DNA from: an uncultured Desulfuromonadales bacterium | Lineage (GTDB): Bacteria > Desulfobacterota > Desulfuromonadia > Desulfuromonadales > Geopsychrobacteraceae | Length of the DNA: 34,242 nt | Direction: 5' to 3' | Assembly: GCA_945787295.1 (NCBI GenBank) | Contig: CALZHQ010000016.1 | Coordinates: forward strand, 1 to 34,242 | Shown: one piece after another, positions 21,000-27,382 of the stretch | Layout of the letters: the number at the start of each line of letters is the position of its first letter | How positions within the stretch are numbered: position 1 is the stretch's first letter | Translations under genes and position numbers: made by a program | Notes under the pieces: generated by a model | The model's database searches: none | What the model saw: the letters and a program-made list of their open reading frames with translations, nothing else | What the model was told of the DNA's origin: nothing

Positions 21000-21317
21000 A
21001 TGAAGCGCACAATCTCATTACTAATGATCGTTGCCATGGTATTGGCTGTAGCCAGTGTTTCTTATGCTGCCAGTGCCCGACGGGGGAAAAGGGTATTTTC
21101 GAAAGTCTGTAAAGAATGCCATGTCAGAGGCAGTGACGCCGGCAAATTGAAGCCATCAGAAAAAACCATGGCCCAATGGAAACGATTCATCAAGAAGAAC
21201 GACCATAAGGGCGGAGCTGCAATTCTTGAGAGTTTGTCCGATAAAGACAAAAGAAATCTGCAAAAATTCCTATTAGATTATGCCCTTGACGCGGACACAA
21301 TCGAAACCTGCGGCTAA
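21000..21317 (+). CDS. small periplasmic monoheme cytochrome c
   Basis: A 105-residue precursor with a typical signal peptide (MKRTISLLMIVAMVLAVASV, cleavage probably after SYA at 23) and one CxxCH heme motif, CKECH, at 37-41. The mature part is about 82 residues with possible axial ligand Met54 in SEKTMAQW and helices typical of class I cytochromes (DKDKRNLQKFLLDYA); the lone Cys near the C-terminus (ETCG) is unusual. GAAGGAG precedes the ATG. It is the last gene of the redox-sensor operon before a strong terminator, so it likely delivers electrons to, or reports to, the heme sensor encoded before it. Confidence 0.93.
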   Translation: MKRTISLLMIVAMVLAVASVSYAASARRGKRVFSKVCKECHVRGSDAGKLKPSEKTMAQWKRFIKKNDHKGGAAILESLSDKDKRNLQKFLLDYALDADTIETCG

Positions 21318-21379: not shown

Positions 21380-21548
21380 ATTCCGCTAAAGAGTCGCTTT
21401 CAGTTCAATTGGGCCCAAGATCCAGCGGGCCCGGGAGCAGACGGAAGACATATCCTACCATCACAAGTGAATCATGTTTACGAATCTGCTATGCTATGGT
21501 CGAGAAAATAAAGACCTTGGCTCTTTTTCGTCAGGAAAAAACTTGAGC

Positions 21549-22379
21549 ATGAAATTTGCGATCAACTTACTGAAAATGTCCATGTATTTTTTCTTGGTTC
21601 AGTTGTTTTGCTCACTGACCGTGCTTGCTGCTGAAGATTTGGGGCGCGTGACCGGGAGTATCGATTGTCGTGAGATTCCCGGTTGTCGCGGAATAGCGGT
21701 GCTTTGGCAGAAAGATGCTGGAGTGGTTCCCGATCCACGCAGTTTTACGGTTCCTCCAGGAGTTGTTTCGCCGCTGCAAAGTGACGGTGCCTTTGTGCTA
21801 GAGGCGCCGCCGGGGGATTATTATGTTGGTGCGTTCTTGCGCAAATCGCCCGGGCCGTTGATGGGGCCACCCAGAATCGGCGATCTTATCTACCTGACCC
21901 CGAATCCCGCCGGTGAAGCTCAGGAGGCTACTGTGGTAGCCGGAAAAACGACAGATACCGGAAATCATCGTGAAGCCTGGTCTTTCAACGGAATGACTGA
22001 CCCGGCAGAAACCGGAGTCAGTGGCCAGATACTCGATATGCAATCACAGCCGGTGGCAGGGTTGCTGGTATTTGCCTTCGCCGATGCCGACCTTTCATCC
22101 TCGCCGCAAGGAGTTTCAACCCGTACTGATGCGGATGGACAATTTGTTCTGCCGCTGGCAAAGCCTGGTGTCGTCTATTTGAGAGTACGGAAAAGCTATC
22201 GCGGCGGCCAACCGATGCCGGGCGATTTTGTAGGAGTTTTCGGTGGGGCGGTGCCAAAAACCCTGTCGGTTACCGAGGGCAGGATGATTAACGACGTGCG
22301 CATTCAGGTGCTGCAGATACCGGATCTGATGAAAAGGAAGGATGCTGCTGGCACCTCGCGACCAAAGTTCCGCAACTGA
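21549..22379 (+). CDS. secreted protein with carboxypeptidase-regulatory-like beta-sandwich domains
   Basis: About 276 residues starting with a signal peptide (MKFAINLLKMSMYFFLVQLF, cleavage near VLA-A). Two beta-sandwich segments follow: a first with PPGVVSPLQSDGAFVLEAPPGDYYVGAFLRK, and a second of carboxypeptidase-regulatory-like type (GVSGQILDMQSQPVAGLLVF, TRTDADGQFVLPLAKPGVVYLRV). Such domains occur in cell-surface proteins; no enzyme motif is visible. The frame is open back to 21474, but ATG 21549 starts the signal peptide and has an AGGA 12 bases upstream. The gene converges on the giant cytochrome and the two share a bidirectional terminator. The function is unknown; a surface or cytochrome-associated role is a guess. 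Confidence 0.8.
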   Translation: MKFAINLLKMSMYFFLVQLFCSLTVLAAEDLGRVTGSIDCREIPGCRGIAVLWQKDAGVVPDPRSFTVPPGVVSPLQSDGAFVLEAPPGDYYVGAFLRKSPGPLMGPPRIGDLIYLTPNPAGEAQEATVVAGKTTDTGNHREAWSFNGMTDPAETGVSGQILDMQSQPVAGLLVFAFADADLSSSPQGVSTRTDADGQFVLPLAKPGVVYLRVRKSYRGGQPMPGDFVGVFGGAVPKTLSVTEGRMINDVRIQVLQIPDLMKRKDAAGTSRPKFRN

Positions 22380-22454: not shown

Positions 22455-22496
22455 AAAAGGAAAGGGCCGGGATGCTTTCCCCGGCCCTTTCCTTTT
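22455..22496. terminator. bidirectional terminator between the secreted protein and the cytochrome/peptide operon
   Basis: A perfect 17-bp stem (AAAAGGAAAGGGCCGGG, 22455-22471, with 22480-22496) and an 8-base loop. It has A-runs on one side and T-runs on the other, so it should stop transcription from both strands. On the minus strand it begins 3 bases after the stop of the 18-codon peptide gene. Confidence 0.92.
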
Positions 22497-22499
22497 GGC

Positions 22500-22556
22500 T
22501 TAGCAGGGATGGACGTTGCTGCTCCCTACCACTTTCGGTTTCATGTACTTCTTCAT
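22500..22556 (-). CDS. 18-residue peptide ending in His-Pro-Cys, encoded directly after the multiheme cytochrome
   Basis: The minus strand reads ATG at 22556 to TAA at 22502-22500 and encodes MKKYMKPKVVGSSNVHPC. A full AAGGAGG (22569-22563) lies six bases before the ATG, as good as any ribosome binding site in the window. It follows the cytochrome stop by 29 bases and is closed by a 17-bp-stem terminator, so the transcript seems built to include it. The peptide has no signal sequence. It has a YxxP motif (Tyr4, Pro7), of the kind bound by RiPP recognition elements in some modified-peptide leaders, and a C-terminal Cys. A modified-peptide precursor is possible (inference); a regulatory or leader role is the alternative. 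No modifying enzyme is in the window. Confidence 0.66.
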   Translation of the reverse strand: MKKYMKPKVVGSSNVHPC

Positions 22557-22585: not shown

Positions 22586-25500
22586 TTACTGCTGATAAAC
22601 TTCCAGTTCGTAAATTCCATAGCCGTTGATGCGCTCTCTGGAACAAACGACACGCACATAGCGGGCAGAGCGACTGCTGAAGCTAATTGTATCGGTCCCA
22701 CCGTTGCCACTCCTCGTATCAAGAACACGGGTCCAGCTGTAGTTGTTGGTCGAGACCTGAACTTCGTAGTTCTCGGCATATTCGCTGCTGTGCCACTTGA
22801 TGACTACCTTGTTGATGTTCTGGCTCTGACCGAGGTCGACCTTGAGCCATTCGTCGCCATAGCCTGCATCTACATACCAGTAGCTGCTGCCGTTGCCGTC
22901 AACAGCGTTGGAGGCCCGGTAGCTGGCACCATTATCACCGGATGCACTGGCGGTTGTGTTCAGCGCCAGGTTGCTGGATGGCGGTGGTGGGCTGTCAGGG
23001 CCTTGGTTCGCGGGTGGAGAGAAGCCCGGCACCATGTAGTTCTGGCCGTTTTTATTGATCGGGTACATATCAAAGTTCAGGGTCGGGTTGCTCCAATTCC
23101 AGCCCCCCTCATCGCCCTGGTCATCACCGTTCGGGGTAATGCCTTCGAGGAAAGTGCCCTCCTGAGACTGGCCGTTGTTGGTCCACTGCGACCAGAAGAT
23201 GGCGAAGCGGCCCTTACCGGTCTGCTTACCCATGTAAGTGGTCCGGGTGTAGCCGAGCGCTTGCGGCGGCTTGGCGTGGAACGGCGTTGTGTCGTGACAG
23301 GCGGCACAGGCGGCGTAGTTCTGGGGCGGACCACCCTTGTCGCTGTGCTTGGTGCCATGGCATTCTCGACAGGCGGCCTGGGCCGGGCGATCGACGGCCA
23401 GCGAGGTGTGGCAGTGGAAGCAGTCGCCGGTCTGCGCGAAGTTGGTCATATGGTGAGAGCTGTCGGCGTTCATATGGCAGGTTGAGCAGTTGCCGCCCAC
23501 CGCAAAGCTTTTGCCGACCGCGTAACTGACCAGTGCACCGTCGCTGTTGTGACAATTGAAGCAATCGTCATGGTTCAACGGATCGTTCGGGTCAACCAAC
23601 GGTGGTGGTGAGCTGTGGCAGTCGCCACACGTGGTGCCGTTGACGGTGACCAGCGAGGTATGACTTGGTGCCGGTGTATGGATCGATTTCCAGCTATCCA
23701 TGTGACAGGTCGCGCAGTTGCCACCGGCAGCAAAGGTCTTGCCGATTGCATGGCTGATCAGTGCGCCGCTCGTTGGGTTGTGGCAGCTGGAACAATCGAG
23801 ATGGGTATCAGTTCCCGGCAGGCCGGTATCAGCCAGCAGGCTGTCATCATGACAGCTGCCGCAACCGGTGCCGGTGACGGTCACCAGACTTGAATGGTCC
23901 GGTTCATTGCCAGGCATGTGAATCATATTCCAGACGGCACCGTGACAGGTGGTGCAGTCGCCACCGGTGGTGAAGTCCTTGCCGATCGCAATACCTTTGA
24001 GGTTACCATCGGTGTCGTGACAGCTACCGCAACCAAGGTGGGTATCGGCACCCGGCAAGCCGGCATCGGCCAGCAGGCTGTTGTCATGACAGCTCGCGCA
24101 ATCGGTTCCGGTGGTCTGAACCAGTGATGCATGGCTCGGCTCTGGCGTGTGGGTGGTTTCCCAGGTGTCCATGTGACAGATCGCGCAGTTGCCACCGGCA
24201 GCAAAGGTTTTGCCGATTGCATAGCTGATCAGCGCGCCGCTTGCTGAATTATGACAGCTGGAGCAAGCCAGGTGGGTATCGGTACCCGGCAGACCGGCGT
24301 CAGCCAACAGGCTGTCGTCATGACAGCTGCCGCAACCGGTGCCGGTGACGGTCACCAGATTTGAATGGTCCGGTTCACTTCCTGGAGTATGAATCATACC
24401 CCAATTTGCACCGTGACAGGTGGTGCAATCGCCACCGATCGTAAAGTCCTTGCCGATCGCAAGGCCCTTAAGCGCGCCATCGCTGTCATGACAGCTACCG
24501 CAACCGAGGTGGGTATCGGCACCCGGCATGCCGGCATCAGCCAACAGGCTGTCGTCATGGCACCCCGCACAGTCGGTGCCGGTGGTGGTCACCAGGGAGG
24601 CATGGCTCGGCTCCGGCGTGTGGGTGGTATACCAGCCATCCATGTGACAAGTAGAGCAGTCGCCGCCGGCGGCGAAGGTTTTGCCCATCGCCAGGCCGAC
24701 CAAAGCGCCGGAGATGGGATCATGGCAGGTTGAACAGGCATTATGTACCTTAGGATCGACGCCATCAATTAACGGCGGTGGCTCACTATGACAGGCGCCA
24801 CAACCAGTCGTGCCGATGGTCACCAGCGCCGAATGATCCGGAGCGGTGGTGTGGGTCGACTCCCAGGTGCCGGTGTGACAGGTCGTGCAGTCGCCCGGCG
24901 CTGACTTGCCAGCAGCAAAACTGACCAGGACGCCGTTGGATGCATGACAGGTGGTGCAGTCATTATGCACTTTGGGGTCAACCGGATCGACCAACGGTGG
25001 CGGTTCAGCATGACAGTCACCGCAGCCGGTCCCAACTGTCGTTACCAGGTTGCTATGATCAGGATCCTGATGCCCGGTGAAGAAATCAACACCATAGGGG
25101 ACATGGCAACTGATGCATTCGATCTGAGTGCCGGCGATGCCGTCATAAATCAGCGAGATGACTTCGGCTCTTGGGCTGAGGTGGCACAGCAGGCAGTCGT
25201 TCTGGTGGAGCGTATTGAACTCATCCTGATTAGCGCTGGCATGGCAGGTGGAACAGTTGGACGTGGTAACCATGTCTAAATGAGTATTGTTGTTTACTGT
25301 ATGACAAAGACTGCAGTTGCTGGTGTTGGTCAGAATATAATCAAAATGAATTTTGAATGGATCAGTTATGGGAACATGCTGGCTCACATGACATCCCGCA
25401 CAATCAACCGGAGTGCCAGTCGGCCCTTTGCCTGTATTGATCGTATTTATAACCTCGGGAACGAGACTGTTATGGCATCTCTGGCATTTCTCGAGTTCCG

Positions 25501-27382
25501 TGAAACCAAGGGTCGGGTGAGCGTGATAGTTCATGATGTAGGCGAAATCGGTGCCGGTAATTTTATCCGTATGGCAAGCGGCACAGTCTGCCGGCGCACC
25601 GAGATTATTATGCACCGCCGGACCGTCATGGGCGGCATGACAGTCGATACATTCTGCCTGACCGCTGTTGATGACATCCCTGACTTCAGATCTGGGGCTG
25701 TTATGGCAGGTGGCACAGTTATTACCGTGTATCACTTCGACAATCTGTGGGTCGCTGTGGGTATGGCAAGCGATACAGTCGGCAGATCCGGTAATAGTTG
25801 CACTGTGATCATGCTCACCATGCGGGGTCAATTCCTTGTCTGCGTGGCAATCCAGGCAATTGGTGGGATCAGCCCTGAGAGCAATAGTATCGATGACATC
25901 CTGCCGTGGACTGTTGTGGCAAGTGGCACAGGAGGTATCCCCGTTGGTCGGCACATTGTGCTCAACCCCTTCTATCTCATCCCAGGTCGACACGACGTGA
26001 CAGTTGCTGCAGAGCTGGCCCGGGGCTTCGTAAGAGAGATCGCCAAGCCCCACCTCGACAGTGTGTTCACCGTGAGCGGTATGGCAGTCGAGACAGGACA
26101 CCTGGGTGCCGCTCACTCCCTGCTCAATCGCCTGGCGAACTTTGGCTGCATTCACGCGGGTACCGGTGTAATTGTGGCAAAGCTCACAATTTGATTGGTG
26201 CAAAGCGTCAACATCTGCATCGTTGAGCAGGGTGCCGGTTCCCGGCGAGCCGGGAACCGAGGTGTCGCTGGTATGGCAGTCACCGCATGATGCGTCGATG
26301 ACCCGGTTGTTATGTGCGCTCGTTGTCTGATGCCCGGCCGCACGATTCTCGTGACAGGTGTCGCAGCTGATGTTCGGTGTCGCTGCCTGAACCTTCGGCC
26401 AGACCGTTTGGGTGCCCCATGGATGCAGGGGAGTATTCGGATCGTGACAGGATTCGCATTTGATGATCATACCGGCAACCATACCGTTACCGTCGCTCAG
26501 AACTGTCCGCCCATAGTGACCGGGGAGAATATTAGTGACCAATGGAGCGTGGCAGCCAGCGCAGGACACATCCGGCGAAGTCACCGCGGCATGGTGACCT
26601 GTCCAAAACTCAGGGCCACCAAATAGGCCGCCCCCTGGGCTGTTATGGCAGTTAGTACAGACTTCCCCTGCAAAGGTCAGGTCCGCGCCGTTGCAATCCT
26701 GATCGATTCCGTCGAAGGGGATGTCGAGAGCGCCCGGGTTGATGGTTACGTCCGCGTCATTACAGTCATCAGTATAAGCAGGATCACCGCAGGAACCGAT
26801 TGCGTAATAACCGTCCCCGTCGGCATCGGTCGGAAGCACGCCTTCATCGATCTGCCCGTCACAGTTGTTGTCAACACCGTCGCAGATTTCAGCGGCACCG
26901 GGATTGATGTTGGCATCGTTGTCATTGCAGTCAATAGGAAGGGGAGCGCACGAGCCGACATAGTAACCGTCAACATCGGCATCAAATGAACACTGGTCCG
27001 TCGATACGATATTGACACCACCGGCAAAGTTGGCCGCACCACCAGCGATAGTGAGGGTGCCGAAAATGCCGGTGGTCGACATCTTAGTCGCAAAAGAGCA
27101 GTCATAGCCGCCATCGAGAACAACGGTTCCACCGTCAAGGATCAAATCTTCGGTAAAGATGTCACCGGCAAGATGAAGCGTGAATTCGGCCAGCCCCAAA
27201 CCACCGCTGGCAACAGAATCACTGGCGTGATCATAAGCACCCTGGATGGAGGTCGGAGCGTAGGAAGAACCGACGATCTTTACAGGAGGATTGCATGCGG
27301 CCAGAGAATCGTCTTTGGCTGAGAAAATAAACAGCAATAAAAAACATGCTAAAGCGAGAAAGAACCTTCTGGGAATTGACAT
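22586..27382 (-). CDS. giant secreted multiheme cytochrome c (44 CxxCH) with MopE-like and F5/8 type C domains
   Basis: This 1598-residue exported protein starts with a signal peptide (hydrophobic core 7-21) ending near SLAAC; LAAC could be a lipobox, but two Asp residues just before it are atypical. Residues 30-130 are Gly-rich beta structure. Residues 131-235 are MopE-like metal-binding repeats (DCNDNDANINPG, CDGVDNNCDGQIDEG, DCNGADL). From residue 242 I count 44 CxxCH motifs: about 20 irregular, then seven tandem three-heme modules of about 78 residues, then three more. A linker with PPPP leads to a C-terminal discoidin (F5/8 type C) domain of about 130 residues (NLALNTTASASG, ASNAVDGNGSSYWYVD, YVRVVCSRERINGYGIYELEVY). 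It probably conducts electrons at or beyond the outer surface, with the discoidin domain binding sugar or mineral (inference). ATG 27382 has AGGG eight bases upstream. Confidence 0.95.
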   Translation of the reverse strand: MSIPRRFFLALACFLLLFIFSAKDDSLAACNPPVKIVGSSYAPTSIQGAYDHASDSVASGGLGLAEFTLHLAGDIFTEDLILDGGTVVLDGGYDCSFATKMSTTGIFGTLTIAGGAANFAGGVNIVSTDQCSFDADVDGYYVGSCAPLPIDCNDNDANINPGAAEICDGVDNNCDGQIDEGVLPTDADGDGYYAIGSCGDPAYTDDCNDADVTINPGALDIPFDGIDQDCNGADLTFAGEVCTNCHNSPGGGLFGGPEFWTGHHAAVTSPDVSCAGCHAPLVTNILPGHYGRTVLSDGNGMVAGMIIKCESCHDPNTPLHPWGTQTVWPKVQAATPNISCDTCHENRAAGHQTTSAHNNRVIDASCGDCHTSDTSVPGSPGTGTLLNDADVDALHQSNCELCHNYTGTRVNAAKVRQAIEQGVSGTQVSCLDCHTAHGEHTVEVGLGDLSYEAPGQLCSNCHVVSTWDEIEGVEHNVPTNGDTSCATCHNSPRQDVIDTIALRADPTNCLDCHADKELTPHGEHDHSATITGSADCIACHTHSDPQIVEVIHGNNCATCHNSPRSEVRDVINSGQAECIDCHAAHDGPAVHNNLGAPADCAACHTDKITGTDFAYIMNYHAHPTLGFTELEKCQRCHNSLVPEVINTINTGKGPTGTPVDCAGCHVSQHVPITDPFKIHFDYILTNTSNCSLCHTVNNNTHLDMVTTSNCSTCHASANQDEFNTLHQNDCLLCHLSPRAEVISLIYDGIAGTQIECISCHVPYGVDFFTGHQDPDHSNLVTTVGTGCGDCHAEPPPLVDPVDPKVHNDCTTCHASNGVLVSFAAGKSAPGDCTTCHTGTWESTHTTAPDHSALVTIGTTGCGACHSEPPPLIDGVDPKVHNACSTCHDPISGALVGLAMGKTFAAGGDCSTCHMDGWYTTHTPEPSHASLVTTTGTDCAGCHDDSLLADAGMPGADTHLGCGSCHDSDGALKGLAIGKDFTIGGDCTTCHGANWGMIHTPGSEPDHSNLVTVTGTGCGSCHDDSLLADAGLPGTDTHLACSSCHNSASGALISYAIGKTFAAGGNCAICHMDTWETTHTPEPSHASLVQTTGTDCASCHDNSLLADAGLPGADTHLGCGSCHDTDGNLKGIAIGKDFTTGGDCTTCHGAVWNMIHMPGNEPDHSSLVTVTGTGCGSCHDDSLLADTGLPGTDTHLDCSSCHNPTSGALISHAIGKTFAAGGNCATCHMDSWKSIHTPAPSHTSLVTVNGTTCGDCHSSPPPLVDPNDPLNHDDCFNCHNSDGALVSYAVGKSFAVGGNCSTCHMNADSSHHMTNFAQTGDCFHCHTSLAVDRPAQAACRECHGTKHSDKGGPPQNYAACAACHDTTPFHAKPPQALGYTRTTYMGKQTGKGRFAIFWSQWTNNGQSQEGTFLEGITPNGDDQGDEGGWNWSNPTLNFDMYPINKNGQNYMVPGFSPPANQGPDSPPPPSSNLALNTTASASGDNGASYRASNAVDGNGSSYWYVDAGYGDEWLKVDLGQSQNINKVVIKWHSSEYAENYEVQVSTNNYSWTRVLDTRSGNGGTDTISFSSRSARYVRVVCSRERINGYGIYELEVYQQ
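23474..25027 (-). repeat. seven tandem three-heme coding modules with a 471-base higher-order repeat
   Basis: Inside the cytochrome gene, motifs 21-41 fall into seven modules of three CxxCH each, about 78 residues apart. Two module subtypes alternate: one with GGNCxxCHMDxW-THTP, one with GGDCTTCHGAxW-MIH. Near-identical DNA recurs at a distance of exactly 471 bases (for example the block at 23841 and at 24312), equal to 157 codons or six hemes. This indicates recent expansion by pairwise duplication. The repeats are coding and in frame, not a CRISPR or mobile element. Confidence 0.9.

Follow-up and report, generated by a model that had tools for sequence, protein, structure and literature searches.

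A conserved 18-codon gene behind a multiheme cytochrome very probably encodes a precursor peptide of the GeoRSP radical SAM/SPASM system

In the PQQ system (PqqA/D/E), the precursor PqqA is known for its Glu-Tyr chemistry; the tail of the mycofactocin precursor is Val-Tyr. Mycofactocin (MftA/MftB/MftC) is presented, in passages of PMC3023750, as a short peptide with a conserved C-terminus that goes with a radical SAM/SPASM enzyme; the same passages link the motif C-x2-C-x5-C-x3-C to peptide modification and list Geobacter uraniireducens with mycofactocin. Regarding leader recognition, excerpts of two papers describe [Y/W]xxPx[L/V/I/F/A] as the motif bound by the discrete RREs of lasso systems (PMC13381572) and link W/Y/LxxP-type motifs to PqqD and others (PMC12710340). 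GeoRSP (TIGR04302 for the PqqD protein, TIGR04303 for the radical SAM/SPASM enzyme and TIGR04304 for the SPASM protein) has a name from NCBI, but is an orphan peptide-modification system: no relevant paper on it or on its TIGR numbers was found in the open-licence literature.

The window, that is, the whole stretch of 34,242 nucleotides from an uncultured Desulfuromonadales bacterium that was analysed here, carries on its minus strand a gene of 18 codons plus stop (22556-22500), whose translation is MKKYMKPKVVGSSNVHPC. The initial annotation had described this frame as preceded by AAGGAGG and a cytochrome gene, and re-reading gave exactly the same distances: the Shine-Dalgarno sequence (22569-22563, minus strand) ends six bases before the ATG at 22556, which itself lies 29 bases 3' of the cytochrome stop. 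The cytochrome gene (22586..27382, minus strand), presumably co-transcribed with that of the peptide, codes for 1598 residues with 44 CxxCH motifs, the number of hemes that had been claimed, and a domain search detects Cytochrome_C7, MopE and F5/8-type-C domains. A perfect 17-bp stem (22496-22480 paired with 22471-22455) starts 3 bases after the peptide stop, also as described, and the 176-nt stretch that includes it folds with a z score of -4.7. Based on its sequence and fold, this hairpin (22455..22496, minus strand) is likely a terminator; since its U-run is within the stem (AAAA:UUUU) and a convergent gene on the plus strand (21474..22379) terminates at its other side, it may serve both strands. 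According to a domain match, this convergent gene codes for a CarboxypepD_reg-like, probably exported protein. At 21000-21317, the window also encodes a small, probably exported protein with one CxxCH, likely a monoheme cytochrome. The earlier remark that the window contains no modifying enzyme holds for GeoRSP, six proteins of whose locus gave no tblastn match in the window at 1e-3; neither does the window contain a further frame ending in H[PL]C-stop.

We propose that the 18-mer is a previously unannotated precursor peptide of the GeoRSP system, a reading to which we give a probability of roughly 0.87. The peptide belongs to a highly conserved family that goes together with GeoRSP, for which no named substrate was found, and very probably is its substrate for that reason.

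The peptide co-occurs with GeoRSP and often adjoins its enzyme gene, although no NCBIfam model matches the peptide and two partners score below the NCBIfam cut-offs in the Desulfuromonas-type locus that was tested (PqqD, 97.8 of 100; SPASM protein, 99.6 of 300). In locus L061, a PqqD-family protein is encoded beside the radical SAM gene, followed by the peptide and then by a SPASM-only protein. The L061 enzyme is named GeoRSP_rSAM by NCBIfam (443.7 bits on TIGR04303, whose cut-off is 400; another match reaches 618.5 bits), and the Geobacter-type proteins of L163 and L182 pass the cut-offs of all three models. Both CX3CX2C and C-x2-C-x5-C-x3-C are conserved in the radical SAM enzyme, in all five sequences aligned. 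Its SPASM partner (L061:620-1654, L163:7931-8818) has the auxiliary-cluster motif and lacks CX3CX2C in six of six aligned sequences, and for this reason looks, on its motifs, like a non-catalytic partner.

The genes that recur in the GeoRSP loci compared code for a NosD-like beta-helix protein, a PhnD-like binding protein, a TPR protein, a YedE-like transporter, PqqD and the radical SAM enzyme, some loci being without some of them. In Geobacter-type loci, genes for OpuAC, ResB, ArsP_1, cupin and FmdE proteins may also be present (L163:34-11935, for instance, contains genes for NosD, OpuAC, ResB, an ArsP_1 permease, a cupin, FmdE, PhnD, TPR and YedE), and in Desulfuromonas-type loci a cysteine desulfurase-like gene. 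NosD is labelled as periplasmic copper-binding in Pfam and YedE as a putative selenium transporter in NCBIfam; these family names suggest that the gene set handles a small ligand across the membrane.

The likeness to mycofactocin lies in the short peptide with a conserved C-terminus and in the radical SAM/SPASM enzyme, and the L061 enzyme has TIGR03962 as its third-best match in NCBIfam. The score on this model is, however, below the cut-off (195.4 bits, against 265), and the peptides studied here have an HPC tail and many scattered precursor genes. As for PQQ, PqqE (6c8v) is the best PDB sequence match of the L061 enzyme and the NMR structure of PqqD is among the fold matches of the GeoRSP PqqD model, but the peptide is unlike PqqA and its chemistry. 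That AlphaFold2 model was obtained from six sequences (pLDDT 85.4, pTM 0.76; 61-69 for the other four models). Its five best PDB matches are TbiB1 chains from lasso leader-peptide complexes (best E 6.6e-5), and the next ones another lasso B1 protein with its leader, then PqqD; searching the PDB by sequence alone gave weak matches, the best of which, at 0.0079, is a PqqD family protein. Judging from the predicted fold, the lasso B1 RREs (TbiB1-TbiA) would be the closest solved structures, and the peptide carries the YxxPx[L/V/I/F/A] motif. The difference is that no lasso cyclase or protease is among the locus genes that were checked, and that the precursors have 16-20 residues here.

To gauge the size of the peptide family, the collection of species genomes was scanned for M-K-x-[YF]-x-[KE]-P followed, after 10-40 bases, by H-P-C-stop. 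Of the 102 loci returned, 94 were kept, with 96 copies besides that of the window. All of these 96 copies are 57 bases long, despite the free length of the gap. The eight loci of other length (L018, L019, L035, L054, L066, L069, L079 and L098), whose titles name other groups, were dropped as chance matches: seven of them either do not keep the frame or have no such tail, while the remaining one, L019, is a 22-residue frame from a Bacteroidetes record and was set aside by eye. The titles of the kept records name Desulfuromonadales, Desulfuromonadaceae, Desulfuromonas, Malonomonas, Geopsychrobacter, Geoalkalibacter, Geothermobacter, unspecified Deltaproteobacteria and, in one case, Phycisphaerae. 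The last is a 3.9-kb contig (L025) in which the peptide has the same HD-gene context as Desulfuromonadales copies, and which is possibly mis-binned.

Together with that of the window, the 97 copies represent 93 distinct DNA sequences and 46 distinct peptides. A Shine-Dalgarno-like motif is present 5' of 95 of them, and a stem of at least 9 bp within 80 nt 3' of 79, as compared to 28 of 485 shuffles. Over the codons left free by the search pattern, the entropies at codon positions 1, 2 and 3 of the 93 distinct sequences are 7.1, 6.1 and 14.5, so that the third position is the most variable, as expected in the initial annotation, and pN/pS is 0.36. Pairwise identity averages 0.75 within the frame and falls to 0.26 in the upstream and 0.28 in the downstream flank (95 copies). 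The alignments thus indicate that the frame is protein-coding and forms an island of conservation between unrelated flanks; a small gene under selection at the protein level is what is expected of a RiPP precursor. A conserved RNA element was rejected, since the flanks are random and variation is concentrated in third positions; no Rfam family reaches its gathering score in the window.

Using a profile, the peptide was found in 95 of the 277 genomes of the class at an E value of 0.001 or better, with 226 matches, from 1 to 6 per genome and more than 1 in 63 genomes. Database searches with the peptide itself gave no matching family in NCBIfam or Pfam with a 22-residue query, nor in NCBIfam with a 20-residue query (E up to 1e-4), in searches that had no positive control for such short queries, and only a chance-level match in the PDB with a 20-residue form. 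No paper naming the peptide was found in the open-licence literature, an absence that is weak evidence.

The distribution of the peptide follows that of the GeoRSP radical SAM/SPASM enzyme. TIGR04303 (cut-off 400 bits) is detected at 1e-80 in 84 of the 277 genomes, 81 of which exceed the cut-off. The peptide is found in 82 of these 84 genomes and is absent in 180 of the 193 others (both, 82; peptide only, 13; enzyme only, 2; neither, 180), which gives a Fisher p of 1.7e-53, although p values overstate independence here because the genomes are related. Peptide and GeoRSP are both present in a culturable strain, Geothermobacter hydrogeniphilus HR-1 (L065, G002). Among the 13 genomes with the peptide only, four contain pieces of the enzyme gene, cut by contig ends or split, and no GeoRSP piece was found in the nine others, which may be incomplete. 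In the two enzyme-only genomes, G183 (which has a 4.3-Mb contig; locus L181) and G227 (locus L182), the GeoRSP loci look complete, but no peptide could be recognised. A diverged peptide was rejected in their case, since the profile, reading through stops, matched nothing at E 0.1; the pattern VHPC-stop occurs seven times in these genomes, never in a peptide of this kind.

The association was also examined outside these genomes, with a profile built solely from the copies of the class and of the window. Among 395 genomes drawn from the phylum, the enzyme is found at 1e-80 in 27, of which 16 are not among the 277 (10 above the 400-bit cut-off and 6 at 380-399). All but one of these 16 contain the peptide (15 genomes, E 1.5e-6 or better); the exception is G448, whose enzyme score is the lowest of the set. 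Among the positives, G336 is the same place as L062 of the pattern scan, which is absent from the profile. In 16 enzyme-negative controls, no match was below E 0.03, the best being 0.037. These peptides from outside the class mostly resemble MKKxxYVKPxVVGTSSVHPC.

Two controls show that the peptide tracks GeoRSP rather than cytochromes or another maturase. The geopeptide maturase (TIGR04280) is a peptide maturase family that is frequent in the same class (103 of the 277 genomes), but it does not co-occur with this peptide (30 of 95 genomes with the peptide and 73 of 182 others, p 0.19), and it was rejected as a partner for lack of association. Cytochrome_C7 is present in 214 of the 277 genomes. 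The peptide occurs in 79 of the 81 genomes that have both C7 and GeoRSP and in only 13 of the 133 that have C7 without GeoRSP; the other 120 have no peptide, and cytochromes were therefore rejected as the sole driver.

The position of the copies relative to the enzyme gene differs between branches. In the pattern-scan set, window included, the upstream gene codes for a radical SAM/SPASM protein for 34 of 97 copies. In the Desulfuromonas-type branch, the peptide lies 30-209 bases past the end of the enzyme match, on the same strand, in at least 42 of 49 loci, and in genomes outside the class it is found 33-143 bases behind this match in 9 of 16. On the contrary, a motif scan of up to 1.5 kb on each side in 30 of the 35 Geobacter-type loci detected no peptide by the enzyme, while at least eight genomes of this type (G145, G156, G161, G162, G192, G201, G207 and G213) carry a copy on the contig of the enzyme gene, at a distance of about 6-11 kb.

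Many copies lie behind other genes. The frames upstream of 170 distinct copies, which are the collected loci and no random sample, were assigned by script to the GeoRSP enzyme (42), a multiheme cytochrome (50), other proteins (66) or none or a contig edge (12). By cluster and by eye, the other proteins include exported repeat proteins, an HD-type protein, a CarboxypepD_reg protein and some probable non-genes; some copies have no clear co-directional upstream gene and are followed by a CarboxypepD_reg-like protein, as named by eye. The expectation that similar short frames should follow homologous cytochromes was thus borne out, and extends to other genes. The residue at position 8 is R in 28 of 34 enzyme-adjacent 18-mers and in 8 of 32 cytochrome-adjacent ones, a contrast which suggests, as far as the peptide sequences go, that the two kinds of copies are lineages long separated and not the result of a recent duplication of the cassette. 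The multiheme cytochromes that precede the peptide often have a C-terminal W-N-x-x-[ST]-x-W-like motif (L164, L165, L167-L170, L173, L175, L190, L198 and L210).

The peptide itself has two conserved parts. The profile brought in 73 loci, and 74 matches were read with no demand on motifs (the profile itself includes eight of these loci as rows). A stop codon directly follows all 74; the leader has YxxP in 71 and FxxP in 3, and the end is HPC in 73 and HLC in one, in keeping with the conserved YxxP and C-terminus that had been anticipated. The length is 16-20 residues, mostly 18 and 20 (170 distinct copies), and the G of the tail is conserved in 100 of 104 distinct peptides, in a set obtained with expressions that require [YF]xxP and H[PL]C. 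In the window, the motif Y4-x-x-P7, presumably the binding site of the PqqD protein or RRE, is at 22536..22547, and the conserved tail G11-C18 (GSSNVHPC), the presumed core, at 22503..22526, both on the minus strand. The frequency of YxxP and the resemblance of the PqqD model to TbiB1 and PqqD suggest that the leader motif fits the RRE of this system.

In the mechanism that we propose, the PqqD-like protein (RRE) would bind the leader Y-x-x-P-x-V and the GeoRSP radical SAM/SPASM enzyme would modify the tail G-S-x-x-V-H-P-C, with the SPASM-only partner in part of the family; between one and six peptide genes would be served in trans by a single enzyme set. It is likely that the tail is the part that is modified, probably at or near the C-terminal Cys, as the initial annotation had suggested. 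Its reading of the frame as a precursor peptide gains from the family, from the co-occurrence with a radical SAM/SPASM and PqqD-like system, which it had also suspected, and from adjacency in one branch; adjacency does not extend to the Geobacter-type branch. The product would most likely be a small redox or metal ligand that acts in the periplasm or outside it, a joint statement to which we give about even odds; it is based on the NosD-, PhnD- and YedE-like proteins of the GeoRSP locus and on the many copies behind electron-transfer proteins. Many of the peptide genes would be placed just behind those of a multiheme cytochrome or of other proteins, several of them exported, and the peptide would on account of this placement be made together with its neighbours. 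The neighbouring electron-transfer proteins may be what the product serves, a tentative proposal somewhat short of an even chance. The complete scheme is also tentative, and we would sooner doubt than assert it: Desulfobacterota with GeoRSP may produce, for extracellular electron transfer, a ribosomally encoded cofactor or ligand of redox or metal type that is built by a radical SAM enzyme, a near-invariant precursor gene being copied behind the cytochrome or exported-protein genes that need it, and one maturase acting in trans on many dispersed substrates that are nearly identical.

Other readings keep the peptide as the GeoRSP substrate and change the fate of the product. It may be a ligand of metal or of selenium or sulfur (a metallophore or delivery peptide) and not a redox cofactor, with His-Pro-Cys holding the metal: the NosD-like, YedE-like and PhnD-like genes of the loci, and the ArsP_1 permease of some, point to this, but that evidence consists of family names, and we consider this possibility unlikely, if worth keeping in mind. 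The modified peptide may also bind to, or become attached to, the product of the neighbouring gene, as a dedicated ligand or tag. Consistent with this idea, copies recur behind cytochromes that share a C-terminal W-N..W motif or carry an F5/8 domain, and 25 of 198 searched loci contain relatives of one CarboxypepD_reg protein. It is nevertheless rather improbable considering that the upstream genes are diverse (one codes for an HD-type protein in which no signal can be seen by eye) and that no shared domain was noticed among the upstream proteins examined.

The cores of secreted signals and antimicrobial RiPPs are usually variable. A short precursor, an RRE-like protein and a radical SAM enzyme would suit such a product, but the tail studied here is near invariant across the phylum and the copies are scattered behind cytochrome genes, which makes this explanation very improbable. 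Hardly more than a slight chance is left for an unmodified regulatory or leader (attenuator) peptide: a hairpin does lie directly 3' of the gene, but the 156 frames found downstream fall into 72 different clusters, the peptide is conserved at the amino acid level and the co-occurrence with GeoRSP would have no explanation. As for a chance reading frame, which 18 codons could suggest, its probability is negligible: the profile matches 226 times in 95 genomes, the frames are conserved and preceded by ribosome sites, and the alignments contradict it, and the initial claim that such packaging is unlikely by chance is strengthened by 96 further copies, the conservation of the frame and its co-occurrence with GeoRSP.

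With the precursor reading preferred here, an orphan system named by NCBI gains a likely substrate, whose identification makes the chemistry of GeoRSP directly testable. The substrate gene is small enough for gene callers to miss. The layout is unusual: genomes have up to six copies of a near-invariant substrate gene, and besides those in the biosynthetic cluster there are copies that follow genes for multiheme cytochromes and other proteins. Should the product serve those proteins, there would be a so far unknown component in extracellular electron transfer.

Last, we note that the 25 loci with relatives of the CarboxypepD_reg/DUF4198-like protein encoded at 21474-22379 in the window were detected at 1e-8, and that a CarboxypepD_reg domain protein is also encoded within one Geobacter-type GeoRSP locus. 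In another genome (L238, G552:C69), three profile matches of the peptide lie inside 2 kb of one contig, possibly a local array.
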